From: Sedimentibacter hydroxybenzoicus DSM 7310
GTDB taxonomy: Bacteria > Bacillota > Clostridia > Tissierellales > Sedimentibacteraceae
Length of the DNA: 64,000 nucleotides
Assembly: GCF_013403245.1 (NCBI RefSeq)
Contig: NZ_JACBNQ010000002.1
Coordinates: forward strand, 186,001 to 250,000
Direction: 5' to 3'
Shown here in pieces: positions 10,853 through 64,000 of the stretch. The position numbers and the translations under genes are program-made. How positions within the stretch are numbered: position 1 is the stretch's first letter; each line of letters starts with the position of its first letter. The notes beneath the pieces were generated by a model, which saw only the letters and a program-made list of their open reading frames with translations, was not told where the DNA came from and did not search any database.

Positions 10853-10890
10853 CCTTGCAATATATCCGTAACAAAAGATGTCGATTTATA

Positions 10891-10899
10891 TGATATAAT
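10891..10899 (+). promoter_or_regulatory. Extended -10 promoter for the glucosaminidase gene
   Basis: TGaTATAAT, with a poor -35. The 8-bp inverted repeat CAAAGGTG/CACCTTTG (2-base centre) at 10916-10933 begins about 17 bases downstream, near the transcript start, and could be an operator or 5' stem. Confidence 0.45.
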
Positions 10900-11020
10900 G
10901 TATCCATCAATGATGCAAAGGTGTGCACCTTTGTTGGACAAGTATTTATTTAATCAGAAGCAAGACAATGAGCGTTTGATTGATAACTGAATGCAGAAAA
11001 GTAATAAAAGAGGTGAAAAT

Positions 11021-13099
11021 ATGAGAAAAAAAGTATTTAGTGGTATTCTGATTGCTATATTTTTAGTGATAGCATTGTTTAATGTTGTGCCAAGGGCATA
11101 TGCAGACGGGCCTATCAGAATTATAATTGACGGAAAGAGGGTTACTTCAGATCCGGAGCCATTTATTAAAAATGACAGAACTTTTGTTCCGATTAGAATA
11201 ATAGCTGAAGAATTGGATGCGGAAGTGAGTTGGGATAATGAAAAAAGAATAGTACATATCTCCAAGGATGATATGCAAGTATCTCTTGTAATTGACAGCC
11301 ATTTAATAGAATATACGATAGACAATGAAACGATTTACAACTTAAGTGATGTGGCGCCTTTAATTCAAGATGACCGTACCTTCGTTCCGATCAGATTGGT
11401 CAGTAATGCCTTAGGAGTAGGAATTGATTGGGATAATGATAAAAGAGCGGTTGTAATTAATCCAAAAGAAAAGTCAAGTGTAGAGCCGTTTTTTGATGTC
11501 AGCATTTCATCTGTTAAACCGGGACAAGTTATAACAGGCACATCAAACTTAAGTATAACAACGAAAAGTGAAATTAAAGGTGCGGCTGAAATAAAATACC
11601 TGCTTCTTAACCCGGATACCAAAAAAGGATTTGTTATAGCAAAAGGAGCTAATTTAACAGGTTCATATAAATGGATTCCGGCTATGGAGGATAGTGGATC
11701 TAAGGTTCTTGTTGCCGCAATATATGATAAAAACGGCAAATTTTTGGCAGGAGATTCGATTCCCGTTAAGGTCAATATTATACCCGATATTAAGCTTAAG
11801 GGATTGACGGAAGGTCAACTGGTAACAATTGATAGCGTCCCATTAACTGCAGAATTGAATTTTGCAGCATTATATGTCAAATACGAAATAATAAACCCTG
11901 ATACCGGAGCATACTATATATCTTCAGAGCAAGATCCGTTAGGGTCATTTACCATGGTTCCTGAAATGGAGGATAACGGTAATATGTCTTTGCGCGTAAT
12001 TGCATATGACACTAAGGGAAACCCCTATTACGGCCCGTACACAAAGGTGAAAGTTGAAGCAAACAGAATATTCTCACTTGGAGGTGTTTCACAAAATCAA
12101 ACAATTGACGGCTCCGTGACGCTTCGAACTGTCAGAAATTTCAGAGTGTCGGAAACCGAATACGTTGTTGTCGATGCTAATACAGGATCCGAAACTGTTT
12201 TATACAAAGCAGGATACGGAAATTATACATGGTTCCCCGGTCCTGATATGGCGGGAAGCAAACAGCTTTACGTAAGAGTTAAGGATGCGGCAGGGAATAC
12301 TTTTGTGAGCAATAAAATAAATGTTAATGTTGCTGGAAATCCTAAGGTATCGTTACAAAGCGTTGCCCCGGGGCAAGTGGTCACAGATACGGTAAATTTA
12401 AAGGTAGGAAGCAATGTAACATTAGATAGTGTAAAATATATTTTAACTAATACAGACACGGGAGAGCAGAAAGTTTTAACAGGACAAACATTCACTCCTG
12501 CTGCAGGCGACGGAGGGTCATGGAGTCTGAGAGCGGAGTCATCATATGCAGGAAAGGTTATTAAGACGGAAGATGTTAAATTTACAATTTATACAGGTAA
12601 GCTCTATCCAGCCCAGGCTATAATTGAAAAAGATAAATTTTTAGATTTTGCTTCTAAGCTTGCGGTAGACGCTCAGAAGAAGTCAGGAATGTCTGCGGCG
12701 TTGCAGACAGCTCAGGCAATTCTTGAAACAGGATGGGGTCAAAGTGTTCCGGTTGATAAATATAACGGAAAGTTCTCATACAATATGTTTGGTATTAAGG
12801 GTTCGTCAACAAACGGTTCTGTAACGTCTAACACGTGGGAGGTATACAACGGCGTTTCTTTCAGAGTGGATGATAGTTTTAGAGCATACAACAATGTTAA
12901 TGAAGCGTGGGATGATCACAAGGATCTTTTGCTTACACGAGACAGATATCAACCGTTCAGAGAGGTTATGTATAACAGTATGCAGGGTGCATGGGCACTT
13001 AAGAGATGCGGCTATGCAACAGATCCTGTTTATGCTATAAAGCTTGTGAATTTAATAAACAGTTACGATTTAAATAAGCTTGACGAAACAGGAATTTAA
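11021..13099 (+). CDS. Secreted GH73-type N-acetylglucosaminidase with stalk and Ig-like repeats
   Basis: Wall hydrolase of about 692 residues. The start has AGAGGTGA 4 bases upstream and opens a signal peptide (ending near PRAYA). Residues about 30-150 are a copper-amine-oxidase N-terminal-like stalk, with two copies of the pattern DRTFVPIR. Then come about four Ig-like repeats (160-500) sharing motifs such as VxPGQVVT and NPDTG. The C-terminal glucosaminidase domain (about 540-685) has the catalytic Glu at residue 569 in AILETGWGQS, plus YNMFGIKG and the later WDDHKDLL helix typical of FlgJ/AcmA-type enzymes. The family cleaves GlcNAc-MurNAc bonds in peptidoglycan. It is probably monocistronic. 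Confidence 0.88.
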   Translation: MRKKVFSGILIAIFLVIALFNVVPRAYADGPIRIIIDGKRVTSDPEPFIKNDRTFVPIRIIAEELDAEVSWDNEKRIVHISKDDMQVSLVIDSHLIEYTIDNETIYNLSDVAPLIQDDRTFVPIRLVSNALGVGIDWDNDKRAVVINPKEKSSVEPFFDVSISSVKPGQVITGTSNLSITTKSEIKGAAEIKYLLLNPDTKKGFVIAKGANLTGSYKWIPAMEDSGSKVLVAAIYDKNGKFLAGDSIPVKVNIIPDIKLKGLTEGQLVTIDSVPLTAELNFAALYVKYEIINPDTGAYYISSEQDPLGSFTMVPEMEDNGNMSLRVIAYDTKGNPYYGPYTKVKVEANRIFSLGGVSQNQTIDGSVTLRTVRNFRVSETEYVVVDANTGSETVLYKAGYGNYTWFPGPDMAGSKQLYVRVKDAAGNTFVSNKINVNVAGNPKVSLQSVAPGQVVTDTVNLKVGSNVTLDSVKYILTNTDTGEQKVLTGQTFTPAAGDGGSWSLRAESSYAGKVIKTEDVKFTIYTGKLYPAQAIIEKDKFLDFASKLAVDAQKKSGMSAALQTAQAILETGWGQSVPVDKYNGKFSYNMFGIKGSSTNGSVTSNTWEVYNGVSFRVDDSFRAYNNVNEAWDDHKDLLLTRDRYQPFREVMYNSMQGAWALKRCGYATDPVYAIKLVNLINSYDLNKLDETGI

Positions 13100-51971: not shown

Positions 51972-53360
51972 ATGAAGCATGGTAAAATAAAAAATATTAT
52001 ATTAACTGTAATGGTAATATGCTGTGTATATTTAAGCAGTAACGTATGGCTTAAATTACCGGATTTTATAAAATATGAAACATCGGCAGAAGAAAATGAT
52101 GATATCAGTAACGTCATCATCCAAATCTGGAATGTAGTAAAACCCGTTAAGCATGTTATAAATTACAATGAGAATTATACAGTTGATTATTCTGATGAAA
52201 ATAATATGTGGGGCAAGGCAGTACAGGTTTTGAACAATGTATTTGCCGCTTTTAATAATGCAGATATTTCTCTTACACCTGCATTTCCTACTCAATATTT
52301 AAAATTTGATTTTTCTGATAATATTCCTGTCGGAATTTTTACAGGACAAATGCAGATTAACAACAGAAATATTTCAGATACAATTAAATATATAAAAAAT
52401 GTAATTATAGATTTAGATAATGCGAATTCAATATATATATATAACGGTGAAAATACTATTAAAATTACCAGCAGTGCAATAGATACAACAGAATTAGCCG
52501 ATATTATAAAACAGTATAGCTTTGAAAATTCAACACAATTTGCATATTATCAAAAAATAGGCAATGAAACCATCCAGGTACCCATCCCATTGGAAACAGT
52601 AGCCCGAAATCCTATATTTGTAAGGTCGGAGCTTGATGTGTTTGATACAGAAGCAATCAATAGAATTGCCAGGGGATACTTCAAAAAAGATTATGATTAT
52701 GTGAGAAAATCGGTTGAAGTAAACGGTAATGTTTCGTATATGTACCGAACACAAAAGTTATTGCGGATAACAGGAGAAGGGCTGCTGGATTTTTATGATG
52801 CAACAACGGAATTGGAAAATTCCTCGGACGTGTATGAAAGTTTTGTAGCCGCAGTGGGATTTACAGAGGGATTTTTAGGATTTCCAAAGGATGTTTATTT
52901 AAGTGATGTAGAAAGTATAGATCATGACGGAAATCATGGCTACAGATATACATTTTCTTATAAAATTATTGACAGACCAATTTTATTTAGTAGAGTAAGG
53001 GCAAATTCAGCACTGCAAATAGATGTTGTAGGAGACGATGTAGTAGTATATAAGAGATTTATAAGAAATATAAATGAATCACAATCAAGTCAGATGAATG
53101 AAATTGCAATAATTCCCGCTATTGATGTTATTAATAAAAATTTAGATTATGATACATCTGATGAGGGCTCAGATCAGGCACCTGAACTCAGACCTTTAAA
53201 AGAAGAAATGATTAAGGATATAAGCAATATATACTTAGGATACTTTGACTTGTCCAGGGTTTCGGGAGAACAACTGCTGAGAGTGTGCTGGGTAATTGAA
53301 GTTAAGGATAAGACGTTTATATTTAATGCAATAACAGGAAGCCTGATAGAAGAATGGTAG
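51972..53360 (+). CDS. WalH (YycH)-like regulatory protein
   Basis: Protein of 462 residues with a single N-terminal membrane anchor (about 8-25) and a large extracytoplasmic domain. The walRK-adjacent position and the architecture match YycH, which restrains WalK through its membrane anchor. The sequence is diverged from Bacillus YycH; the closing segment LDLSRVSGEQLLRVCWVIEV-type stretch (YFDLSRVSGEQLL, then NAITGSLIEEW) is YycH/YycI-like. Seventeen bases separate it from walK and from walI. Confidence 0.75.
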   Translation: MKHGKIKNIILTVMVICCVYLSSNVWLKLPDFIKYETSAEENDDISNVIIQIWNVVKPVKHVINYNENYTVDYSDENNMWGKAVQVLNNVFAAFNNADISLTPAFPTQYLKFDFSDNIPVGIFTGQMQINNRNISDTIKYIKNVIIDLDNANSIYIYNGENTIKITSSAIDTTELADIIKQYSFENSTQFAYYQKIGNETIQVPIPLETVARNPIFVRSELDVFDTEAINRIARGYFKKDYDYVRKSVEVNGNVSYMYRTQKLLRITGEGLLDFYDATTELENSSDVYESFVAAVGFTEGFLGFPKDVYLSDVESIDHDGNHGYRYTFSYKIIDRPILFSRVRANSALQIDVVGDDVVVYKRFIRNINESQSSQMNEIAIIPAIDVINKNLDYDTSDEGSDQAPELRPLKEEMIKDISNIYLGYFDLSRVSGEQLLRVCWVIEVKDKTFIFNAITGSLIEEW

Positions 53361-53376
53361 CAAGGATGTGATCTGA

Positions 53377-54222
53377 GTGGATTGGAACAAATCAAATATA
53401 ATATTTATAGTTGCGTTTATAATTTTGAATATATTTCTTCTTTCATATTCTTTTAACGATATTTTTTCCGAAGAATATAATATAATGTCCGATAAGGATT
53501 TTATTGAAGATGTTGAAAATATTTTAAAGGAAAAAAACATTGCAATTAATTGTGAAATACCGAAGGAAATATATACTCTTCCTGTATTGGACACAGAATA
53601 TAGAATTATTAATATAGATAAAAAAATGCTGGAGAAATTTTTAGGTGAAGGAATTGATCCGGTTGAAAATGTTTTTTCATATAGCAATCAAAAGGGAGAA
53701 TCAATTGAAATAATCGAAGGTAAAAAATTTATTTACACTCTGAGAGAAAAAGTAAACGGTAATTTAGAAGATAATTTGAAAATTACGGATGAAATAAATA
53801 ATTTCTTAAAAAACAAAAATATTGACGGGTCAGGCTTTAGCGAGAATTACAGAATCATTATAGATGACTCAGGCTTCATAATGTATACAAGATACTATAA
53901 TAACGTAAGCGTTGACAATTCCTACATGAAATTTTACTTTGATAGAAATGGCATCTATAAATTTGAAATGCAAAAAATAATTTCCATAAAAGAAATAGGC
54001 GAAAAAGTAAATACATTCACGGCTGCCGAAAGCTTACTAAAGCTGTTGTCCTATGATGATGTAAACAATAAGGAAATTATAAAAATCGATATGTCATATT
54101 ATAGTATAGAAGATGAGAATTGGCAGGTTATCTCGGGAATAAATTCATACCCTGTGTGGAAAGTTATTTTTAGTGACGGAACACAAAAACATTTAATCAG
54201 CCCCAACATTTATTTTTATTGA
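53377..54222 (+). CDS. WalI (YycI)-like regulatory protein
   Basis: Protein of 281 residues beginning at GTG (MDWNKSNIIFIVAFIILNIF), with the WN-type start and single membrane anchor seen in YycI, then an extracytoplasmic domain. The C-terminal stretch NSYPVWKVIFSDGT suggests a YycI/PepSY-like fold. Together with the preceding gene it would form the inhibitory partner pair of WalK. Last gene of the wal operon. Confidence 0.75.
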   Translation: MDWNKSNIIFIVAFIILNIFLLSYSFNDIFSEEYNIMSDKDFIEDVENILKEKNIAINCEIPKEIYTLPVLDTEYRIINIDKKMLEKFLGEGIDPVENVFSYSNQKGESIEIIEGKKFIYTLREKVNGNLEDNLKITDEINNFLKNKNIDGSGFSENYRIIIDDSGFIMYTRYYNNVSVDNSYMKFYFDRNGIYKFEMQKIISIKEIGEKVNTFTAAESLLKLLSYDDVNNKEIIKIDMSYYSIEDENWQVISGINSYPVWKVIFSDGTQKHLISPNIYFY

Positions 54223-54312
54223 AAAAGTTACAGTTATATTATATCATTATATGATGAAAGATGCCCTAACCCTATTTTTTCGGGTTAAAGTAAAGAAAAA
54301 ATAGCAGTAGGT

Positions 54313-54380
54313 CATTCGCAACGAATTCCCAATGTATACGACCGGAGGGAGTAAATACATTGGTGAATAAGGCTGCGCTT
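54313..54380. repeat. Structured inverted-repeat element after the wal operon
   Basis: CCAATGTAT (54329-54337) and ATACATTGG (54355-54363) form a perfect 9-bp stem around a purine-rich loop, extended by partial pairing of ATTC with GAAT. Another small stem TAACCC/GGGTTA lies at 54267-54287. It looks like a dispersed intergenic repeat or a structured RNA; no T run follows. Confidence 0.5.
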
Positions 54381-54456
54381 TTTAAACTTTTTAAGGAATT
54401 ATTTTAATGTAAACTTAGTTATATTATTTAAATAAACAAGAATTGAGGAATTATAT

Positions 54457-55722
54457 ATGTCAAAATTCGTTATAGAAGGTGGATCAAAGCTAAAGGGAAA
54501 GGTTAATATAGGTGGATTTAAAAATGCTGCCGTTGCAATAATTCCCGCAACATTGCTATGTCCCGGCAAATGCACCATTCAAAACGTACCCAATATAGAA
54601 GATGTTAATGTTTTTTTAGACATTTTGCGAGAATTAGGAGCTGAAGCGAGATACATAGATGATACTACTATTTATGTCGATTCGACAAATGTTGAGGGCT
54701 GCTATTTAAAAAACGGCTTATCCAAAAAAATGAGAGCATCCTATTACTTGCTCGGGGCAGGACTTGGAAGATTTAAAAGCAGTTCGTCATTGCTTCCCGG
54801 TGGATGCGACATTGGTGAGAGACCGATAGACCAGCATATAAAAGGCTTTGAGGCGCTGGGAGCCACTGTTGATATCACTCCTGACGGGAGGGTTAACGTA
54901 CGGGCTGACAAATTAACAGGAAATAAAATATATTTAGATAAGGTAAGCGTTGGAGCTACGATTAACATAATGCTTGCGGCAGTATATGCAGAAGGCAGGA
55001 CTACGATTGAAAATGCTGCAAAAGAGCCGCATATAGTTGATACTGCAAATTTTTTGAATTCTATGGGGGCCGATATAAAGGGTGCGGGAACGGATGTCAT
55101 CAGAATAAACGGTATAAAAGAGCTTACGGGATGCACATACAGAGTTATTCCCGATCAAATTGAAGCAGGAACATACATGATAGCTGCTGCGGCCACAAAG
55201 GGAGATATTATTATAGATGATATTATACCGAAGCACCTTGAACCGATTACAGCTAAGCTGAAAGAAATGGGCTTAGGCATAGAGGAATATGGTGATTCTA
55301 TGAGAGTTTTTTACAACCGTGAGCTAATACCCGTTAATATTCAGACCTTGCCTTATCCGGGTTTTCCAACCGATCTTCAACAACCTATGACAGTGTTGTT
55401 ATCAACATTAATTGGTGAAAGTACAGTTGTTGAAGGGGTATCGGAGGATAGATTTAAGTATGTGAATGAAATCAACAGAATGGGCGCCAACATAGAGTTT
55501 ACCAAGAAGCAGGCAAGGATAATCGGTACTGACAAACTGAAGGGAACGGTGGTACAAGCCACGGATTTAAGAGCAGGAGCTGCTTTGATAATTGCAGGCT
55601 TAGTTGCCGATGGCTTAACAGAAATTATAAATATACACCATATAGACAGAGGATATGAGCACATAGAAAATAAATTTATGAATCTTGGAGCGAAAATTAA
55701 AAGAGTGAAGGACGAAGAATAA
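54457..55722 (+). CDS. murA: UDP-N-acetylglucosamine 1-carboxyvinyltransferase
   Basis: Catalyses the first committed step of peptidoglycan synthesis, adding enolpyruvate from PEP to UDP-GlcNAc. The 421-residue EPT-fold protein has the conserved Lys in [10 protein letters not shown], and the catalytic Cys at residue 117 in [12 protein letters not shown], so fosfomycin sensitivity is expected. Other blocks are [15 protein letters not shown] and [24 protein letters not shown] lies upstream of the ATG. Placement after the wal operon and before a transglutaminase-like gene is consistent with wall functions. Clostridia often have two copies; which paralogue this is cannot be told. Confidence 0.95.
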
Positions 55723-55750
55723 AGGATTATAATTTTTATAGGGGGCAAAA

Positions 55751-57112
55751 ATGTTATTGAAGGATTTAAAGTATTTAAAAGTGAATCTTCCCGAAGATGT
55801 ACTTAAAATGAAAATGAACGGTAATTTTACCGACGCAATTAAGTTAATCAATTTAAGATTAAATAAGCAAATTCCTGTTGCTATGAGAAAGAGATTAGAG
55901 TTAGAAAAAGAAATTATAAATACGATCAAGAATGAATACACATATACATTTGATGAAGCTTTAAAAAAATGTCAGGATAACATAAAGGATTTTACTAAAG
56001 AAGAATTAATATTTTTACAGGAAGACAGTCAGGCAGATTGGATATTGATAGACGGTCAGGTTAAATTTAATGATAGCTTCTACGGTTCCTTGCTCGTTAC
56101 GAGAGCCGATTTAAATGAAAGATTAATTGAACAGAAGGAATCACGCAATGAAAGAGCTGAATATTTAGATGCAAATATTAAAGATATGAAGGAAAACAAA
56201 GAAGCTTCATACTATATACATTTAAAAACATCTCTTAAGATAAAAGGCGAATGCGCAAGGACGGGAGAAAAAATAAAGGTTCACATGCCTCTTCCCGCAA
56301 ATTGTCAGCAGAAAAATATAAAAATAATAAAAACAACACCTGCGGCAAAGTTCATATCCGATGAAGACCACCCAAGCAGGACGGCATATTTTGAAACCGT
56401 ATTACAGGAAAATATGGAGTTTTCAGTGGAATACTCCTACGAAAGTCATTTAAAATACAATGAACCGGACACGGAAAAGGTATCGGTACAGCAGCCGGCA
56501 TTCGATACCAATGAATTTGAACCTCAAATTATGTTTACACCGTATATTAAGGAGCTTGCAAATGAAATAATCGGTGATGAAACGAATCCTTTAATAAAAG
56601 CGAGAAAAATATACGATTATATAACACAAAATATAAAATATTCATACATGAGAACATATTCTACGATCATCAATATTCCTGAATATTGTGCGTTAAATTT
56701 AAAGGGTGATTGCGGAGTTCAGGCGCTTTTATTTATTACATTGTGCAGATATACAGGCATACCTGCTAAGTGGCAGTCAGGTTTGGCTGTAACACCATAC
56801 CATGTAGGACCTCACGACTGGGCTCAATTCTATGTGGAGCCGTATGGATGGCTGTTTGCCGACCCGTCATTTGGGGGAGGCGGCTACAGAAACGGAAATA
56901 CGGATAAATGGGATTTCTATTTTGCAAACTTAGACCCATTCAGAATGGTAGCCAATTCGGAGCTTCAGCATGAATTTGATCCGCCTAAGCAATATTTCAG
57001 ACACGATCCCTACGACAATCAGGTAGGCGAATGTGAGTATGAAGACAGAGCAATAAGAAGAGAAGAATTCAGAGTAAACTTTGAATTGATTGAAATGAAA
57101 AAAATTTCATAA
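55751..57112 (+). CDS. Transglutaminase-like cysteine protease domain protein
   Basis: Protein of 453 residues with a transglutaminase-like core in its second half. The catalytic set is visible: Cys in LKGDCGVQALLFITL, His in GPHDWAQFYVEP and Asp in FADPSFGGGG. The N-terminal 150 residues are helical and charged; a beta-rich region comes between. No signal peptide or membrane segment. Such proteins are often cytoplasmic peptidases; the substrate is unknown. It follows murA by 28 bases and is probably co-transcribed. Confidence 0.82.
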   Translation: MLLKDLKYLKVNLPEDVLKMKMNGNFTDAIKLINLRLNKQIPVAMRKRLELEKEIINTIKNEYTYTFDEALKKCQDNIKDFTKEELIFLQEDSQADWILIDGQVKFNDSFYGSLLVTRADLNERLIEQKESRNERAEYLDANIKDMKENKEASYYIHLKTSLKIKGECARTGEKIKVHMPLPANCQQKNIKIIKTTPAAKFISDEDHPSRTAYFETVLQENMEFSVEYSYESHLKYNEPDTEKVSVQQPAFDTNEFEPQIMFTPYIKELANEIIGDETNPLIKARKIYDYITQNIKYSYMRTYSTIINIPEYCALNLKGDCGVQALLFITLCRYTGIPAKWQSGLAVTPYHVGPHDWAQFYVEPYGWLFADPSFGGGGYRNGNTDKWDFYFANLDPFRMVANSELQHEFDPPKQYFRHDPYDNQVGECEYEDRAIRREEFRVNFELIEMKKIS

Positions 57113-57270: not shown

Positions 57271-59112
57271 ATGATAGAAAATTTTCAGTTGCTTCAACTT
57301 ATTACAGATTGTCTGGAAGACGGAATTATATTTGTAGATAAAGATTACAAGGTGAAGCTTTTTAATCAAAATGCAAAGAGAATTACCGGGATTATCTTTG
57401 ATAAATATGCCTCACATGATGCAGGAAAAATTGAAGAAGGAGATATTGTTATTCTTGCAGATAGCGCAATTGGAGAAGACGATGGGTGTTTGTCACCAAA
57501 AGATTTGTCGTTGATTAATATTAAGGATTCTGATATTCGGGCAAATGATTGTATTTTAGGAATAGGTGTTTATGGAAATGCGGAAATATTGCCTGTTTAT
57601 AAATATCTTCGTGGTGCAAACCTCAATGAAGATTTTGTGTTAGAAGCAAATTATCTGGGTTTTCAAATTCAGATATGCATTGAGACAATGAAGAAAAAAA
57701 TACATATCAGGGTGAATGGAGATTCATATAGTGTATCTTTTTTAGGATCTTTCGGTCATATGGTCATCATTGACGGTAAAAGTGGAGTAATAAAATTTTT
57801 TCAGGCAAAGGGTTATACCATACGAAAAGAATCGATTAAAGAAATTTTACATGGGCGTAAATTTTTTTCAAAGGACAGTAAAGAAGATCCTAACGTCATA
57901 GGAGAGAAAATTGATGATCTTTTTATGGGGGATAAGCTGCTGCAGAGTATAAACTCAGTACTATCAGGGAATGAACCTTTTATTCCGAATGATTTTTTTG
58001 AGATTAATAAGCGTCTGGTGCTGTGCTCAATGAGAGCCATTGAAGATAAGCAAGGCGTGCAGGGCGTATTACTTAACATACAGGATGTGTCTGAGCTGGA
58101 AAAATTGTTGGATTACCGTAATCAGATTTTAATGGAGGTTGAGAAAAGCTACACGAACCGAACGCCGATATACGGAGACATTTCGAAAGATGCTTTTGCA
58201 GAGTTTATAGGGAATAGTCATTCAATGGTCCAATTGAAGTATCTTGCATATAAAGCTTCGAAAACAAAATTTAACGTAATTATAACAGGAGAAAGCGGAA
58301 CAGGAAAGTCGCTTTTAGCCCGATTGATTCACGAAGAATATAATAAATCGTCTCCCTTTATAGAGGTAAATTGTAATGCTATTGCGCCTACACTTTTTGA
58401 AAGCGAACTGTTTGGATATGTAGGGGGTGCTTTTACAGGAGCTCTTTCTTCCGGACGCTCCGGTTATTTTGAAAATGCAAATGGAGGCACGATTTTTTTA
58501 GATGAAATTGGAGACCTTCCTTTAGAAATTCAGGTAAAATTACTGTATGTTTTGCAAAATAAAATAATTTACAGGGTTGGATCATCAAAGCCAATTCCAA
58601 TTGATGTCAGGGTAATTGCCGCAACAAATAAAAATCTTGAAGAAGAAGTGATGAACGGAAGGTTTAGACAGGATCTTTATTTTCGTATTAATGTATTTCC
58701 AATTACGATTCCTCCTCTTCGTGAGCGTAAATCAGATCTGTACATGTTGATTAACAAAATTTTGAATAAAATTTGTACTCGTTATGATTTTCCACAAAAG
58801 CAATTATCCGGCGAAGCCTTAGACAAACTTCTCCGATATAACTGGCCGGGAAATGTTCGTGAGTTGGAGAACATCATTGAGCGGGCGATTACACTATGCG
58901 AAACTAATTGGATTTATCCGGAACAGATTAATATTAATGATTTCAGCCAAGCCGCAACTTCTATGCAGGAGCAGATGCAAGAAGCGGAGAAAAAATTTTT
59001 GAAGGATGCATTGATTAGGGCAAATGGAAATAAGGCTCAGGCAATGAAGGATTTAGGCATGTCAAAATCTGTTTTTTATGAGAAATTGAAGAAACACGCT
59101 ATATCAAATTAG
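57271..59112 (+). CDS. Sigma-54-dependent transcriptional activator
   Basis: Enhancer-binding protein of 613 residues. An N-terminal PAS-like sensory region (about 1-300, including LITDCLEDGIIFVDKDYKVK) precedes the AAA+ domain: Walker A GESGTGKS near 341, the sigma-54-contact loop GGAFTGA near 385, Walker B GTIFLDEIGDLP, and the arginine-finger region RFRQDLYFRINVF. A Fis-type helix-turn-helix ends it (KAQAMKDLGMSKSVFYEKLK). Two sigma-54 promoters lie downstream at 59133 and 61018, its likely targets. The ligand is unknown; context suggests a peptide or amino acid. Confidence 0.93.
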   Translation: MIENFQLLQLITDCLEDGIIFVDKDYKVKLFNQNAKRITGIIFDKYASHDAGKIEEGDIVILADSAIGEDDGCLSPKDLSLINIKDSDIRANDCILGIGVYGNAEILPVYKYLRGANLNEDFVLEANYLGFQIQICIETMKKKIHIRVNGDSYSVSFLGSFGHMVIIDGKSGVIKFFQAKGYTIRKESIKEILHGRKFFSKDSKEDPNVIGEKIDDLFMGDKLLQSINSVLSGNEPFIPNDFFEINKRLVLCSMRAIEDKQGVQGVLLNIQDVSELEKLLDYRNQILMEVEKSYTNRTPIYGDISKDAFAEFIGNSHSMVQLKYLAYKASKTKFNVIITGESGTGKSLLARLIHEEYNKSSPFIEVNCNAIAPTLFESELFGYVGGAFTGALSSGRSGYFENANGGTIFLDEIGDLPLEIQVKLLYVLQNKIIYRVGSSKPIPIDVRVIAATNKNLEEEVMNGRFRQDLYFRINVFPITIPPLRERKSDLYMLINKILNKICTRYDFPQKQLSGEALDKLLRYNWPGNVRELENIIERAITLCETNWIYPEQININDFSQAATSMQEQMQEAEKKFLKDALIRANGNKAQAMKDLGMSKSVFYEKLKKHAISN

Positions 59113-59132
59113 AGTATGATGAATGATTCTGT

Positions 59133-59149
59133 TGGCATAATACTTGCAT
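59133..59149 (+). promoter_or_regulatory. Sigma-54 promoter of the dipeptidase gene
   Basis: TGGCAT-N5-TTGCAT, with GG and GC separated by exactly 10 bases. It fits the -24/-12 consensus and lies 21 bases after the activator gene. Confidence 0.88.
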
Positions 59150-59195
59150 AAAATTATGTTATATAAATTAAGTTGAAAGGAAATAGGTGTATTAT

Positions 59196-60140
59196 ATGAG
59201 ATTGATTGATTTACACTGTGACACTTTATTAAACTTATACCGTGACAATAACTGCGGACTTTTCGATAATTCAGGTCATATCAGTTTAAAGAAAATGCAA
59301 CAGGGAGGAGCACTTGCGCAATTTTTTGCTGTTTACATATCCAGAAATGAAATGAAGACAATGGATCCTTATGAAATTTTCCAAGGAGTTTACGAGGTTT
59401 ACCAAAAAGAGATGAAAAAGAATAAGGATGTGATTCTTCCGGCTTATTGTGCAGATGATGTTGAAAAAAATCAAAGTTCAGGGAAGATGTCCGCATTCCT
59501 TTCCATTGAAGATGGCGTTGCTGTAAGCAATAAAACAGAACGCTTGGTAGAATTTTATGAAAAAGGTGTACGTCTTATAACCCTTACATGGAATTTTGAA
59601 AATGAAATAGGGTTTCCATGCAGTAAGGATGAAAAAGCACACCGGTTAGGGTTAAAGCCATTTGGGTTTGATGTACTTGACGAAATGAATCGGTTAGGTA
59701 TGCTGGTTGATGTGTCACATCTTTCAGAAGGTGGATTTTACGATGTGGCTAAGTATTCAAAAAAGCCGTTTGTTGCTTCGCATTCCTGTGCTCGAGCTTT
59801 ATGCAATCACCAAAGGAATCTGTCAGATGAACAGCTGAAGGTTATTGGTGATAAAGGCGGTTTAGTCGGTGTAAATTTCTGCGCCGGATTTTTAAGAGAA
59901 GGTGCTGAATATTCCGCAATTGAAGACATAGTTTCCCATACAGTATATATGGCAGATAAAGCCGGTGTGGAAAGCATCGGATTTGGTTCTGATTTTGATG
60001 GTATTGAGGACGAGCTTGAAATGAAGGATTATGCAGGGTATCCTATACTGCTAGATGCTTTGAGCAAGCATTTCAGCCAGGCACAGCTAGATAAAATATG
60101 TAAAGATAACGCCATGCGTATTATTAAGGATTGTTTATAA
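59196..60140 (+). CDS. Membrane dipeptidase (M19 family)
   Basis: Zinc dipeptidase of about 314 residues. The metal ligands are in place: DLHCDT at the start, Glu in FLSIEDGVAV, His in VDVSHLSEGG, His in FVASHSCARA and Asp in GSDFDGIED. M19 enzymes cleave dipeptides, often with a D-residue at the C-terminal side. I use the ATG at 59196 (RLIDLHCDT is the usual M19 start); GTG at 59187 is also possible. A sigma-54 promoter lies upstream and a terminator downstream. Confidence 0.92.
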   Translation: MRLIDLHCDTLLNLYRDNNCGLFDNSGHISLKKMQQGGALAQFFAVYISRNEMKTMDPYEIFQGVYEVYQKEMKKNKDVILPAYCADDVEKNQSSGKMSAFLSIEDGVAVSNKTERLVEFYEKGVRLITLTWNFENEIGFPCSKDEKAHRLGLKPFGFDVLDEMNRLGMLVDVSHLSEGGFYDVAKYSKKPFVASHSCARALCNHQRNLSDEQLKVIGDKGGLVGVNFCAGFLREGAEYSAIEDIVSHTVYMADKAGVESIGFGSDFDGIEDELEMKDYAGYPILLDALSKHFSQAQLDKICKDNAMRIIKDCL

Positions 60141-60150
60141 AAGAAAGTTA

Positions 60151-60192
60151 AAAGAAATTCGGACAGGAATCATTCCTGTCCGAATTTCTTTT
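60151..60192 (+). terminator. Intrinsic terminator after the dipeptidase
   Basis: A near-perfect 20-bp inverted repeat (AAAGAAATTCGGACAGGAAT and complement) around one base, then T residues. Confidence 0.85.
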
Positions 60193-60222
60193 CGCTCTGA
60201 TAAGTGTATTAAAATTTTGTGT

Positions 60223-60816
60223 TTATGGATGACTCATGAAAATAGCACGTGCCAAGGCAATAGATTGTGTAAGGGAAGCTAAGATTAAAAGTGCCAGGCA
60301 GGAGTAAATTAGGGAAAAAGCTTTTCTTGAAGAACCGTGCCCAGGAAGTTTTGTAAATTTCTTTTCTATGGAGATGTTTTTTGTTTTTAACAGTTTGTAA
60401 AATTCGTCAACTCCAACAGGAGAAACTATGCCCAGTCGAAAAAAAGGAATAAATAAGGAAGCGTTTTCGTTATTTGCAGCATATAATGAAATTCCTCGTT
60501 TACCCAAAATAGCTTTTGAAATTTCTTCAATCCTCATTATATTTTTTTTTCTTAAAATCCGGTTATAATAAATAATTTCGGTTTCGTTATAATCTGTATA
60601 AAATAATTTGTGCCCGAAAAAAAAGAAAAGGCATGTTCCCAAATATACAGTATAGAGAAGAATAGATGCACCTATATTGTAAGAATCGGCATAATTATTT
60701 ATGTCGAATACAATAACTTCATAAAATATGACAAAACGTGCCAAAACGAGAAACATAAGAAGTATCAGGAAGACCTGTCTTGACATGGTGGAATAATAGT
60801 ATTTGATTCGTTTCAT
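60223..60816 (-). CDS. Membrane protein with a PH-like loop, unknown function
   Basis: Protein of 197 residues with two N-terminal membrane segments (about 12-32 and 48-68), a soluble middle with a PH/bPH-like feel (LFYTDYNETEIIYYNRILRK and the next strands), and a C-terminal membrane segment (about 167-188). I do not recognise the family. It runs opposite to, and is flanked by, the two sigma-54-controlled units; its own start is preceded by AAGGAG. Confidence 0.65.
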   Translation of the reverse strand: MKRIKYYYSTMSRQVFLILLMFLVLARFVIFYEVIVFDINNYADSYNIGASILLYTVYLGTCLFFFFGHKLFYTDYNETEIIYYNRILRKKNIMRIEEISKAILGKRGISLYAANNENASLFIPFFRLGIVSPVGVDEFYKLLKTKNISIEKKFTKLPGHGSSRKAFSLIYSCLALLILASLTQSIALARAIFMSHP

Positions 60817-60895
60817 TTTGTTCTCCTTTTTTATGCTTTATCCTATTCTACATATCCGTCTAAAAAAAGTAAAGCGGAAATATTATTTTACATTG

Positions 60896-60913
60896 ATTCC
60901 TAAAATCAGGAAT
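60896..60913. promoter_or_regulatory. Candidate activator-binding dyad
   Basis: ATTCCT-N6-AGGAAT, centred about 113 bases upstream of the sigma-54 promoter at 61018, within the usual range for an upstream activator site. No copy was found near the 59133 promoter, so the assignment is weak. Confidence 0.3.
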
Positions 60914-61017
60914 TGGAGTGCGTAATTCAGTACTAAAATAACTTCCTAAGAATAATGTCTTAATGTGAAGGCTTGAAAAAACATAAAAAGTGCAAGGGAA
61001 AAGCAAAAATACAGATG

Positions 61018-61034
61018 TGGCAAGAAAATTGCAT
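61018..61034 (+). promoter_or_regulatory. Sigma-54 promoter of the spmAB-like genes
   Basis: TGGCAAGAAAATTGCAT: GG and GC separated by 10 bases, same pattern as at 59133. Fifty bases before the ATG. Confidence 0.85.
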
Positions 61035-61083
61035 ATTGTTATTTGTATCTAAAGACAAACCATTTTAAGGAGGAATTATTACT

Positions 61084-61752
61084 ATGATGAATTTTATTTG
61101 GGTAGGACTTGTAGCTATTGCTGTAATTGCCGGAACTGTAACAGGAAATATAGCTGCAGTTCAGGAAGCTTTATTTAGTTTTGCAGGCACAGCAGTTGAA
61201 ATTGTAATTGGACTAGTAGGTGTCATGGTCTTTTTTACAGGGCTTATGTCCGTTATGGAAAAAGCAGGACTTTGTGAGAAATTAGGAAAGGCTATCAGCC
61301 CGGTTATGCGCTTATTGTTTCCTGATGTGCCGAAAGACCATCCTGCAATGAGTTCTATGGCTTTGTATTTTGCAGCAAACATTTTAGGTATTGGTAATGC
61401 GGCAACACCTTTTGGTTTAAAGGCGATGGCAGATTTGCAGACACTGAACAAAACGAAACACATTGCTACGGATGCACAATGTATGATACTTGCAATCAGT
61501 ACTACTTCAATTACATTGATTCCGGTTACGGTATTGGCATTGCGTTCTGCAGTCCAGGTAGAAGGAGCAGCGGAAGTTGTAGGACCGGTTATTTTAGCTA
61601 CAACTATTTCTACAGTTGTCGGAGTTGGAGTTACATTGCTCTTAAACAAATCAAAGAAATATAAACTGGAAAATGTCATTGAAAGAGAAAGAGCAGCCGG
61701 TACTTTGACAATTAATGAAGATTACATCGGAAATGACCCAATTAAGTTATAA
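61084..61752 (+). CDS. SpmA-like nucleoside-recognition (Gate) membrane protein
   Basis: Membrane protein of 222 residues with about five hydrophobic segments. The signature blocks are LMSVMEKAGLCEKLGKAISP, then FPDVPKDHPAMSSMALYFAANILGIGNAATPFGLKAM, which identify the SpmA/Gate-domain family. SpmA and SpmB are needed for B. subtilis spore dehydration. AAGGAGG precedes the start. Sigma-54 control and the nearby dipeptidase suggest a transport role here instead of, or beside, sporulation. Confidence 0.88.
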   Translation: MMNFIWVGLVAIAVIAGTVTGNIAAVQEALFSFAGTAVEIVIGLVGVMVFFTGLMSVMEKAGLCEKLGKAISPVMRLLFPDVPKDHPAMSSMALYFAANILGIGNAATPFGLKAMADLQTLNKTKHIATDAQCMILAISTTSITLIPVTVLALRSAVQVEGAAEVVGPVILATTISTVVGVGVTLLLNKSKKYKLENVIERERAAGTLTINEDYIGNDPIKL

Positions 61753-61778
61753 GTGAAGAGATTAAGGAGGATATATTC

Positions 61779-62312
61779 ATGACAGAAGTTTTAAATATTA
61801 TTTCCAAATATGCAATACCATTGATATTGCTAGTTATACCTGTATATGCATTGGCAAAAGGTGTTAAGGTTTATTCCGTATTTACAGAAGGTGCAAAAGA
61901 AGGCTTAAAGGTTTCTGCAATGATTGTACCATATTTAGTATGTATGCTTTGTGCAATCGGAATGTTTCGTGCTTCAGGGGCTATGGACTGGCTGACTAAT
62001 ATCATCAATCCGATTACAAGCTTGATTGGCCTTCCGGGCGAAATTCTTCCTATGGGAATTATGCGTTCCTTCTCAGGAGGTGGTGCAGAGGGTATGATGA
62101 GTGATCTTTTAACCATGTATGGTACACAAAGTCAGATTGGTAGAATTGCATCCGTTGCTTTGGGTTCCACAGAAACAACATTTTATGTTATCGCAGTTTA
62201 TTTTGGAGCTGTAGGTATTACAAACGTAAGACATTCTGTTATCGCCGGGTTGTTAGGAGATTTAGCATCTTTGATTGCTTCAGCCGTTATTGTAAATGCT
62301 ATGTGGTTTTAA
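61779..62312 (+). CDS. SpmB-like nucleoside-recognition (Gate) membrane protein
   Basis: Partner of the preceding gene; 177 residues with about five membrane segments. SpmB blocks are PLILLVIPVYALAKGVKVY, then FTEGAKEGLKVSAMIVPYLV, EILPMGIMRSFSGGGAEGMM and VALGSTETTFYVIAVYFG. AAGGAGG precedes the start, 26 bases after spmA-like. A comparable pair, YjiG/YjiH, sits in one cluster with the isoaspartyl dipeptidase IadA in E. coli. Confidence 0.88.
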   Translation: MTEVLNIISKYAIPLILLVIPVYALAKGVKVYSVFTEGAKEGLKVSAMIVPYLVCMLCAIGMFRASGAMDWLTNIINPITSLIGLPGEILPMGIMRSFSGGGAEGMMSDLLTMYGTQSQIGRIASVALGSTETTFYVIAVYFGAVGITNVRHSVIAGLLGDLASLIASAVIVNAMWF

Positions 62313-62425: not shown

Positions 62426-63724
62426 ATGATTAAAGAAATTAAAAATAATATCTTGTATTTTGACGGATGTAATACTGTAGAATTGGCTGAGAAATACGGA
62501 ACACCTTTATATGTAATGAGTGAAACGGCTATTGTGGAAAAATGCAAAGAAATAAGAGATACATTTCTAAACAAATATGAAAGAACGAGAGCAGCATATG
62601 CTGCAAAAGCATTTTTAACCCTTTCAATGTGCAGGATAATTGAAAGAGAAGGACTTTGCCTGGATGTTGTCTCAGGAGGAGAGTTATATACAGCTATTAA
62701 AGCGAATTTTCCTGCAGAAAAAATTGAGTTTAACGGCAACAACAAATCAATCGGAGAATTAGAGCTTGCGATTGATTACAACATTGGACGAATAATAGTG
62801 GATGGTCTCGATGAGTTAGATATTATAGAAGGCATTTGTAAGAAAAAAGGGAAGAAAACCAATATACTGTACAGAATAACGCCGGGAGTTAAAAGTGATT
62901 CTCATGATTATATAGTTACAGGAAAAAAAGATTCTAAGTTTGGTATTCCTTTAGATGATGAAGTTATATTTCCTGCAATCGAAAAAGCAATAAATTCACC
63001 GCATATAAATTTCATGGGCTTTCATTTTCATGTGGGTTCGCAGCTTCTTAACAATGAATCACATTTAAAAGCATTGGGAACTGCATTAAAACTAATAAAG
63101 GATATAATTGACAAATATAATTACGTAACACCGGAATTAAATATAGGCGGCGGATTCGGAATCAAGTATACGGATGATGATGATAAAAAGTCATATGCGT
63201 ATTTCTTAGATCCGATGATGGAAAGAATTGAAGAGTTTTCAAAGGAAATGAATATCACGAGACCGGAAATTGTTATTGAACCGGGCAGAAGCATAGTTGG
63301 TGAATCAGGAATAACACTTTATACAATCGGTACTATAAAGGACATAAAAGGGATAAGAAAATATGTGTCTGTTGACGGCGGTATGACTGATAATATAAGA
63401 CCTGCATTGTATCAAGCCAAATATGAAGGTATTGTTGCTAATAAAGCGGATATGGCTAAGACGGATTTAGTTACAATAAGCGGAAAATGCTGTGAATCGG
63501 GAGATATATTAATTAAGGATGCACATATTGCTATCGCTGAAAGAGGAGATATATTTGCAGTTTTTTCAACAGGAGCATATGGTTATTCCATGGCAAGTAA
63601 CTATAATAAAAACCCTGTACCTGCAACTGTGTTGGTTAAGGACGGCAAATCAGAAATTATAGTAAAAAGACAGACATATGATCACATGATAGCAAATGAA
63701 GTTATACCTGAATCATTGAAATAA
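62426..63724 (+). CDS. lysA: Diaminopimelate decarboxylase
   Basis: PLP enzyme (432 residues) making L-lysine from meso-diaminopimelate. The PLP Lys is residue 61 in AAYAAKAFLTL; the His of the barrel is in FHFHVGSQL, followed by GGGFGI and EPGRSIVGE. The second-domain Cys is in ISGKCCESGDIL and the Tyr in TGAYGYSMAS. AAGGAG precedes the ATG. dapF follows 21 bases later, so both lysine/DAP genes form an operon separate from the sigma-54 unit. Confidence 0.96.
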   Translation: MIKEIKNNILYFDGCNTVELAEKYGTPLYVMSETAIVEKCKEIRDTFLNKYERTRAAYAAKAFLTLSMCRIIEREGLCLDVVSGGELYTAIKANFPAEKIEFNGNNKSIGELELAIDYNIGRIIVDGLDELDIIEGICKKKGKKTNILYRITPGVKSDSHDYIVTGKKDSKFGIPLDDEVIFPAIEKAINSPHINFMGFHFHVGSQLLNNESHLKALGTALKLIKDIIDKYNYVTPELNIGGGFGIKYTDDDDKKSYAYFLDPMMERIEEFSKEMNITRPEIVIEPGRSIVGESGITLYTIGTIKDIKGIRKYVSVDGGMTDNIRPALYQAKYEGIVANKADMAKTDLVTISGKCCESGDILIKDAHIAIAERGDIFAVFSTGAYGYSMASNYNKNPVPATVLVKDGKSEIIVKRQTYDHMIANEVIPESLK

Positions 63725-63745
63725 AAAATGCGAGGAAGTGATATT

Positions 63746-64000
63746 ATGGATTTTTATAAAATGCAGGGTGCAGGAAATGATTTTATAATTATTAATAACA
63801 TGAAATTAAATATTCCTGTATATAAATTACCTTCAATCGCAAAGAAGCTTTGCCAGAGAAAACTATCAATCGGTGCTGACGGCTTTATGGTGGTCGATTA
63901 CCCTGAGGGAGATGCAGATTTCAAAATGCGTTTTTTTAACCGTGACGGCAGTGAAGGTGAAATGTGCGGCAACGGAGCAAGGTGCATTTCCCGATATGCA
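63746..64000 (+). CDS. dapF: Diaminopimelate epimerase (partial, runs off window)
   Basis: First 85 codons of the cofactor-independent epimerase that interconverts LL- and meso-diaminopimelate. The start MDFYKMQGAGNDFIIINN and the catalytic Cys at residue 74 in EMCGNGARC are plain. GAGGAAG precedes the ATG. The 3' end, with the second catalytic Cys, lies beyond the window. Confidence 0.95.
   Translation, partial: MDFYKMQGAGNDFIIINNMKLNIPVYKLPSIAKKLCQRKLSIGADGFMVVDYPEGDADFKMRFFNRDGSEGEMCGNGARCISRYA

Follow-up and report, generated by a model that had tools for sequence, protein, structure and literature searches.

The spore maturation genes spmA and spmB are described, in an excerpt of PMC13188902, as lying downstream of dacB, with their loss raising the water content of the core, and an excerpt of PMC3533761 lists SpmA and SpmB among conserved spore-former genes without activity data. 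Part of a further source, PMC2954226, calls the murein-peptide permease of Bacillus subtilis unidentified, and Table 1 of PMC6615313 gives sigma-54 control of amino acid and peptide catabolism in Clostridiales. These threads meet in a stretch of 64,000 nucleotides from Sedimentibacter hydroxybenzoicus DSM 7310 (contig NZ_JACBNQ010000002.1, positions 186,001 to 250,000; the window), in which the gene of a sigma-54 activator is followed by an M19 dipeptidase gene and a SpmA/SpmB-like pair. The unit is confirmed as real and conserved. The novelty lies in the association of SpmAB pairs with enzymes trimming the peptides of the cell wall, together with a sigma-54 member of the family that can be tested outside sporulation. 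As the best explanation, held with moderate confidence and derived from sequence comparison, the window would carry a sigma-54 unit for the use of cell-wall peptides, the pair being a transporter of a cell-wall-derived substrate.

This explanation is carried mainly by the neighbours of SpmAB pairs across genomes. Loci were picked by similarity to the SpmA of the window, and their proportions differ from those of all genomes; they comprise the best 80 of 581, all SpmA matches above about E 1e-48 among relatives, and 18 usable among the matches listed. The 94 loci with separate genes (split loci) give 89 non-duplicate ones after duplicates or same-species copies are left out (L109, L110, L130, L128 and L080, in our locus labels). 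L104, also listed among the dropped loci, has no SpmA, while L127, L189 and L209 are neither split nor fused and stand outside the 89 split and 41 fused loci. The preliminary description had proposed dipeptidases as general partners of such pairs, but an M19 gene lies within 2.5 kb of SpmAB in one of the 89 split loci, which is the window itself. A count of neighbours shows instead that the recurrent partners are peptidoglycan carboxypeptidases: an S66 gene (murein LD-carboxypeptidase) occurs within 2.5 kb in 30/89 loci and an S11 gene (DD-carboxypeptidase) in 25/89, the two never together. Most are on the same strand and no more than 200 bp away (S66 in 29 of 30, S11 in 23 of 25). Beyond 4 kb, S66 was encountered once and S11 never in the 94 loci, which corresponds to near and far densities per 100 kb of 7.42 versus 0.13 for S66 and 5.85 versus 0 for S11. 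Other enzymes within 2.5 kb in the 89 loci are M55 (four), NlpC/P60 (four), S13 (three), M15 and M14 (one each); the neighbour profiles were built from genes mostly beside SpmAB, and distant members may escape them.

S66 adjoins SpmAB in Bacillota, Fidelibacterota, Pseudomonadota (Kangiella) and Acidobacteriota, and some of the units outside Bacillota also contain an S13 DD-carboxypeptidase, an M15 D-Ala-D-Ala dipeptidase or an NlpC/P60 gene, for example in the row GATase-S13-S66-SpmA-SpmB. This recurrence across phyla is a stronger point than the counts. Among open-licence papers, none was found that joins a spore maturation protein with an LD-carboxypeptidase, and muropeptides, LD-carboxypeptidase and sigma-54 occur jointly in connection with Campylobacter shape only.

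The features of the window, with open reading frames (ORFs) at the positions given in the preliminary description, are as follows.

57271-59112, plus strand: gene of the sigma-54 activator (enhancer-binding protein), from the ORF list, Pfam and Foldseek.
59133-59148, plus strand: candidate sigma-54 -24/-12 promoter of the M19 gene, TGGCATAATACTTGCA, from pattern and matrix scan.
59196-60140, plus strand: M19 membrane-dipeptidase family gene, from Pfam and matches to solved structures.
60150-60192: inverted repeat of 20 pairs separating the M19 gene from the minus-strand gene, from the repeat and terminator scan.
60223-60816, minus strand: gene of a small hydrophobic protein of 197 amino acids (aa), matching none of the families of Pfam.
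60898-60911: candidate activator-binding palindrome, TCCTAAAATCAGGA, 119 bp 5′ of the 61018 promoter, from alignment and matrix.
61018-61033, plus strand: candidate sigma-54 -24/-12 promoter of the SpmA/SpmB-like pair, TGGCAAGAAAATTGCA, with counterpart sites in relatives.
61084-61752, plus strand: gene of the SpmA-like Gate protein, 222 aa (PF07670).
61779-62312, plus strand: gene of the SpmB-like Gate protein, 177 aa (PF07670).
62426-63724, plus strand: lysA-type gene, assigned to diaminopimelate decarboxylase from its domain and context, a putative member of the unit.
63728-64000, plus strand, leaving the window: dapF-type gene, by eye that of a diaminopimelate epimerase.

Both GG-N10-GC sites claimed at 59133 and 61018 are present in the sequence. 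A hand-made sigma-54 matrix with obligatory GG and GC gives them scores of 24.0 and 22.0, the top two values on both strands of the 64 kb, followed by three sites at 21.5. A loose pattern with two mismatches was uninformative (70 matches versus 68.6 expected) and was replaced by the matrix and by the strict pattern TGGCAN6TTGCW, found 47 times in the genome versus once for its reversed control. The genome encodes rpoN. Its 47 strict sites amount to a sigma-54 regulon of large size, and at the 30 sites inspected by eye the downstream genes include thiolase-like and permease-like ones.

A strong site was then defined by a score of at least 21.5, a threshold chosen after the scores had been seen, within 220 bp 5′ of a gene; an activator was counted as near when any match to its profile lay within 6 kb of SpmA, which includes an unrelated gene in L209. 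With an activator near, 10 of 17 SpmA genes, that of the window included, are preceded by a strong site; where S66 is present and no activator lies within reach, the figure is 3 of 18. Strong sites are found before none of the 25 S11-linked SpmA genes, none of the 32 with neither partner and none of 39 fused genes (the 41 fused loci minus L124 and L166). In the controls, strong sites were seen before 10 of 1828 unlabelled genes and in 8 of 4400 shuffled upstream sequences; LysA genes have them in 6 of 37 cases and OppA genes in 4 of 13. These counts, like those of the palindrome below, come from related loci and hence are not independent. Sigma-54 control of both units is plausible on this basis, and the M19 gene and the pair are likely transcribed separately, from two promoters. 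The repeat at 60150-60192 is flagged as terminator-like for the minus strand only.

Alignment of the upstream stretches of six loci revealed a TCC-N8-GGA palindrome, which was thus noticed in loci afterwards used for testing. The copy at 60898 is the top match of the window to a matrix made from the sites of relatives and itself (16.1, with the next at 13.3). In related loci, duplicates kept, the palindrome lies 20-320 bp 5′ of 18 of 50 strong sigma-54 sites, eight of the 18 having two copies 19-21 bp apart, and its base rate is 0.06 per 300 bp. Across 133 SpmA genes it occurs in 10 of 13 with a sigma-54 site versus 17 of 120 without (Fisher 5e-6), and in the form with at least two more inner pairs in 7/13 versus 7/120 (3e-5). 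When the six aligned loci are removed, five of seven sigma-54 sites still have it. Of the 30 sigma-54 sites examined in the genome itself (out of 47), two carry the palindrome, that of the pair and that of one thiolase-like gene. The 60898 copy is accordingly placed as a candidate binding site of the activator.

The activator has the intact GAFTGA loop attributed to it, since GGAFTGA is unbroken in the translation, and Pfam recognizes Sigma54_activat (217 bits), the AAA lid and a Fis-type helix-turn-helix. Its N-terminal domain, encoded at 57271-58200, is PAS-like and interrupted by some 165 inserted residues: PAS matches in Pfam fall at residues 7-41 and 208-275, below cut-off in the activator of the window itself, and Foldseek aligned the PAS domain of CitA with the modelled domain (mean pLDDT 75.6) across the same large gap. 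The insert has conserved GD(I/L)VIxAD and GHM motifs; no match to a known family emerged at the thresholds applied, Foldseek gave no confident fold besides PAS, and the insert may be the ligand-binding part. A search of 61 genomes found the N-terminal domain in 22, its own included, the weakest match being near E 1e-3. The surroundings of 20 matches at E 1e-36 or better comprise eight beside an SpmAB pair (the window among them), seven beside Opp or YkfB/YkfC-type genes without the pair, two beside LysA and S66 without the pair, one beside a transglutaminase, LysA and DapF, and two that are unclear at contig ends. Pfam, applied to one representative of each, identified S66, MR_MLE, NlpC/P60 with SH3, M55, alanine racemase, M20 and a family-5 solute-binding protein. 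To judge from these domains, the gene set linked with the activator appears close to the murein-peptide set described in Bacillus.

Both proteins of the pair belong, as claimed, to PF07670 ('Gate') with scores over cut-off, SpmA preceding SpmB. Built from 106 SpmA sequences, a quick tree (support by the Shimodaira-Hasegawa-like approximate likelihood ratio test, SH-aLRT, only; 14 fused rows kept and other fused ones left out) places the SpmA of the window in starred sets of 4, 6 and 11 rows, all other members of which have S66 within 2.5 kb. Its nearest relative, in L106, is 71% identical and has the order SpmA-SpmB-S66-M55; at the window locus, S66 has been lost or was never present. Three S66 genes lie elsewhere in the genome, one clustered with an alanine racemase and M20, genes that also adjoin the pair in some relatives. 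Mapped onto the tree, the label S66 requires eight changes, at least five of them forced by starred branches, and therefore S66 was gained or lost several times.

SpmA-like genes are found in 330 of 398 genomes sampled from the phylum of the window's genome and in 75 of 348 from that of Kangiella, the latter mostly in frames long enough for fusions. Natural SpmA-SpmB fusions of about 410-500 aa were observed in cyanobacteria, myxobacteria, Verrucomicrobiota and Pseudomonadota, with no S66 or S11 nearby (L120, L129, L143, L178, most of L206-L225 and others). For the fused genes of Pseudomonadota, the neighbour profiles alone, applied to 20 of the 75 genomes with matches, revealed no recurrent neighbour.

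An AlphaFold model of one such fusion, that of L143 (17 sequences), has a mean pLDDT of 83, and its best Foldseek matches include DASS, AbgT and TRAP transporters, with CNT lower; the helix order of its two halves looks alike by eye. At sequence level, SpmA matched no solved structure and SpmB gave one weak match (E 0.26). SpmA and SpmB may be two subunits of one transporter, perhaps of the elevator type.

The proposed mechanism would begin with the activator sensing some signal through its PAS-type sensor domain, binding the 60898 palindrome and turning on the pair from the 61018 promoter, the M19 gene being driven by its own promoter at 59133. SpmA and SpmB would form the halves of one secondary transporter for a small cell-wall-derived substrate. 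D-alanine is the product common to S66, S11, S13, M15 and M55 enzymes, and therefore D-alanine or a short murein peptide ending in D-Ala would be the first choice of substrate; diaminopimelate or lysine would come second, because LysA and DapF adjoin the pair of the window. In the cytoplasm, M19 would cleave a dipeptide with a C-terminal D-residue, and LysA and DapF would consume the diaminopimelate. Three proposals of the preliminary description fit in here: the transporter-like nature of the pair is supported by the comparisons, as is sigma-54/activator control, which is conserved in relatives, and a nutrient-type control, in a catabolic rather than a sporulation setting, comes out as likelier.

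Several observations weigh against this explanation. The window's own enzyme is M19 and not S66. No D-Ala-releasing enzyme is in reach in 33 of 89 split loci, among them that of the second pair of the genome, and among the 41 fused loci S13 is near in three and S66 or S11 in none. An RsuA-type gene with no evident link to the pair occurs near it in 22 of 94 loci, against three occurrences far away; conserved gene order therefore explains part of the neighbour figures, and an inherited order may likewise account for the association with S11 in spore formers. LysA lies within 2.5 kb in 14 of 94 split loci and is barely enriched (15 near and 18 far; 3.37 versus 2.39 per 100 kb); with far density nearly equal, it was discarded as a weak unit marker. 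DapF, by its profile, is near the pair five times and far once. The LysA and RsuA controls therefore weaken two of the supporting points. S11 enzymes act outside the cell and S66 enzymes are thought to act inside, and therefore a single substrate for all pairs is an assumption. In the fold comparison, no Foldseek match reached E <= 0.001, the TM-scores of the nine best range from 0.28 to 0.47, one of these nine is an integrative model, and what was modelled is not the pair of the window but a natural fusion found in a different phylum. The palindrome with three inner pairs occurs in 3/13 versus 1/120 SpmA genes (0.003), a form that excludes the copy of the window. As a stand-alone signal, TCC-N8-GGA was rejected, since it also lies 5′ of 7 of 25 S11-type SpmA genes, where the copies perhaps sit inside the upstream gene; it was therefore counted only alongside a sigma-54 site. 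Finally, no palindrome precedes the M19 promoter (best score 2.2 versus 16.1), and therefore the control of M19 by the same activator would follow from its position alone.

The M19 gene is also the starting point of the alternative that survives best, general dipeptide catabolism, in which the pair would import dipeptides or their amino acids and M19 would cut them, with no link to the cell wall. The gene is indeed what had been claimed (PF01244, 305 bits, over cut-off), and its product matches 16 distinct solved-structure sequences at E <= 0.001, nearly all named dipeptidases. It starts at ATG 59196 (or GTG 59187), shows no apparent signal peptide by eye, and has H7, D9, E105, H175 and H196 as presumable metal ligands, D266 being present. 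M19 enzymes act on L-X-D-Y dipeptides. In L106, an M19 gene clipped by the contig end, 59% identical over 148 residues, lies about 3.2 kb upstream of SpmAB. The second M19 gene of the genome is carried by stretch L234, on whose minus strand (10857-11165) a sigma-54 site scoring 23.7 was seen 49 bp 5′ of a gene near likely oxidoreductase genes (by eye).

Dipeptide catabolism also finds favour in the amino acid and peptide theme of Clostridiales sigma-54 (PMC6615313, Table 1), in the AbgT-like fold match, and in the yjiH-yjiG-iadA cluster of Escherichia coli. The preliminary description had invoked this cluster through kinship with the pair; the cluster exists, but the kinship to SpmAB is distant. 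With hhalign, YjiH reaches a probability of 0.6% against the SpmA profile, and SpmA against SpmB 20.8% by the same method. The SpmB of the window scores 41.7 bits on the PRK10519 model, which we take to be YjiG, against a cut-off of 111, and YjiG relatives score 28-40 bits on the SpmB profile (E down to 1.5e-12). With the YjiH profile unmatched and the YjiG model below cut-off, the pair was not assigned to YjiH/YjiG; a distant SpmB-YjiG homology remains. Strong YjiH matches occur in 10 of 349 sampled genomes. By BLASTP, no IadA was found in flanks of about 1.5 kb around 14 YjiH loci (11 strong), and an M20 peptidase follows the YjiHG pair in both loci checked with Pfam. That Gate pairs in general accompany peptide-acting enzymes is a fair idea. 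Of the open-licence papers found for YjiH or YjiG, none has either name in its title. The dipeptide alternative is nevertheless unlikely, given that the window is alone among the split loci in having M19 near SpmAB and that the recurrent partners act on peptidoglycan.

Export offers another direction of transport: the pair would expel lysine or D-alanine left from the breakdown of murein peptides, and would not import a substrate. LysA adjoins the pair in some relatives, and peptides could be taken up by the Opp systems linked with this activator family, but the partnership of 25 of the 89 pairs with an S11 enzyme, which frees D-Ala outside the cell, makes export quite doubtful. A sporulation duplicate of SpmAB with a role in spore maturation is very improbable, for although the family is the same and the genome encodes SpoIVA, the pair of the window has no adjoining S11 dacB, groups with S66-type and not S11-type pairs, has a sigma-54 promoter and palindrome, and is accompanied by a second pair elsewhere. 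The absence of a second pair, combined with expression of the window's pair in the mother cell only, would have counted against the preliminary description; the second pair lies on another contig, and its proteins (202 and 171 aa) are 41% and 44% identical to those of the window. No S11 gene adjoins it and no D-Ala-releasing enzyme is in reach, and therefore it cannot be named the sporulation pair. The genome contains a further small Gate pair (153 and 148 aa) that follows a gene resembling hisS by eye (L015:5469-6369, minus strand).

The use of cell-wall peptides, our preferred explanation, could be extended to the whole family, an extension that we regard as tentative. All SpmAB proteins, those of sporulation included, would then be two-subunit elevator transporters of D-alanine or a small murein peptide. 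DacB would release its products between the forespore membranes, and a wet core would result from products left uncleared; the non-sporulation branch would serve the use of cell-wall peptides, governed by sigma-54 in these anaerobes and by other means elsewhere. The occurrence of SpmAB beside cell-wall-peptide enzymes, also beyond Bacillota, thus suggests one testable function that bears both on the activity of SpmAB and on the murein-peptide permease, and the sigma-54 link offers an inducible SpmAB member for study outside sporulation.

Around the unit, murA (by eye), a transglutaminase-type gene, the activator, M19, the pair, the lysA-type and the dapF-type genes all run in one direction. 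The minus-strand hydrophobic protein of 60223-60816 has relatives of 28-35% identity that adjoin the pair, or lie one gene off, in the five nearest loci (L075, L077, L106, L107 and L108). Upstream, 51972-57112 holds YycI (by Pfam), YycH and murA (by eye) and the transglutaminase, an arrangement conserved in several relatives. The neighbours of YycI resemble, by eye, the remainder of the WalK-YycH-YycI group, and therefore the stretch as a whole may concern the cell wall.

Several known systems invite comparison. The AbgT, DASS, TRAP and CNT elevator transporters are among the best fold matches of the fused SpmAB model, with weak scores. The E. coli YjiH/YjiG-IadA locus likewise combines a Gate pair with a peptidase, which there comes after the pair, but no sigma-54 activator is annotated in its 10-kb stretch. 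Like the window, B. subtilis dacB-spmA-spmB has two adjacent Gate proteins (about 200 and 178 aa), and it shares with the family of the pair a peptidoglycan carboxypeptidase as neighbour; SpmAB of spore formers differs in having S11 DacB in place of M19, in the lack of any strong sigma-54 site (0/25) and in its separate part of the tree.

The dpp/ykf genes of B. subtilis, which are under CodY, resemble the activator-linked relatives in S66 (YkfA-type), MR_MLE (YkfB-type), NlpC/P60 with SH3 (YkfC-type), M55 and an Opp/Dpp-type solute-binding protein. The window differs from them in its sigma-54 activator and SpmAB pair and in having M19, LysA and DapF alone, the set of S66, epimerase, NlpC/P60 and peptide transporter being found in the loci of relatives only. 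For the Clostridiales sigma-54 regulons of PMC6615313, Table 1 contains no SpmAB, M19 or S66 ('memP' entries aside) and the main text neither 'peptidase' nor 'Spm'; what these regulons share with the window is an activator that adjoins its target and, according to that table, the catabolism of amino acids and peptides.

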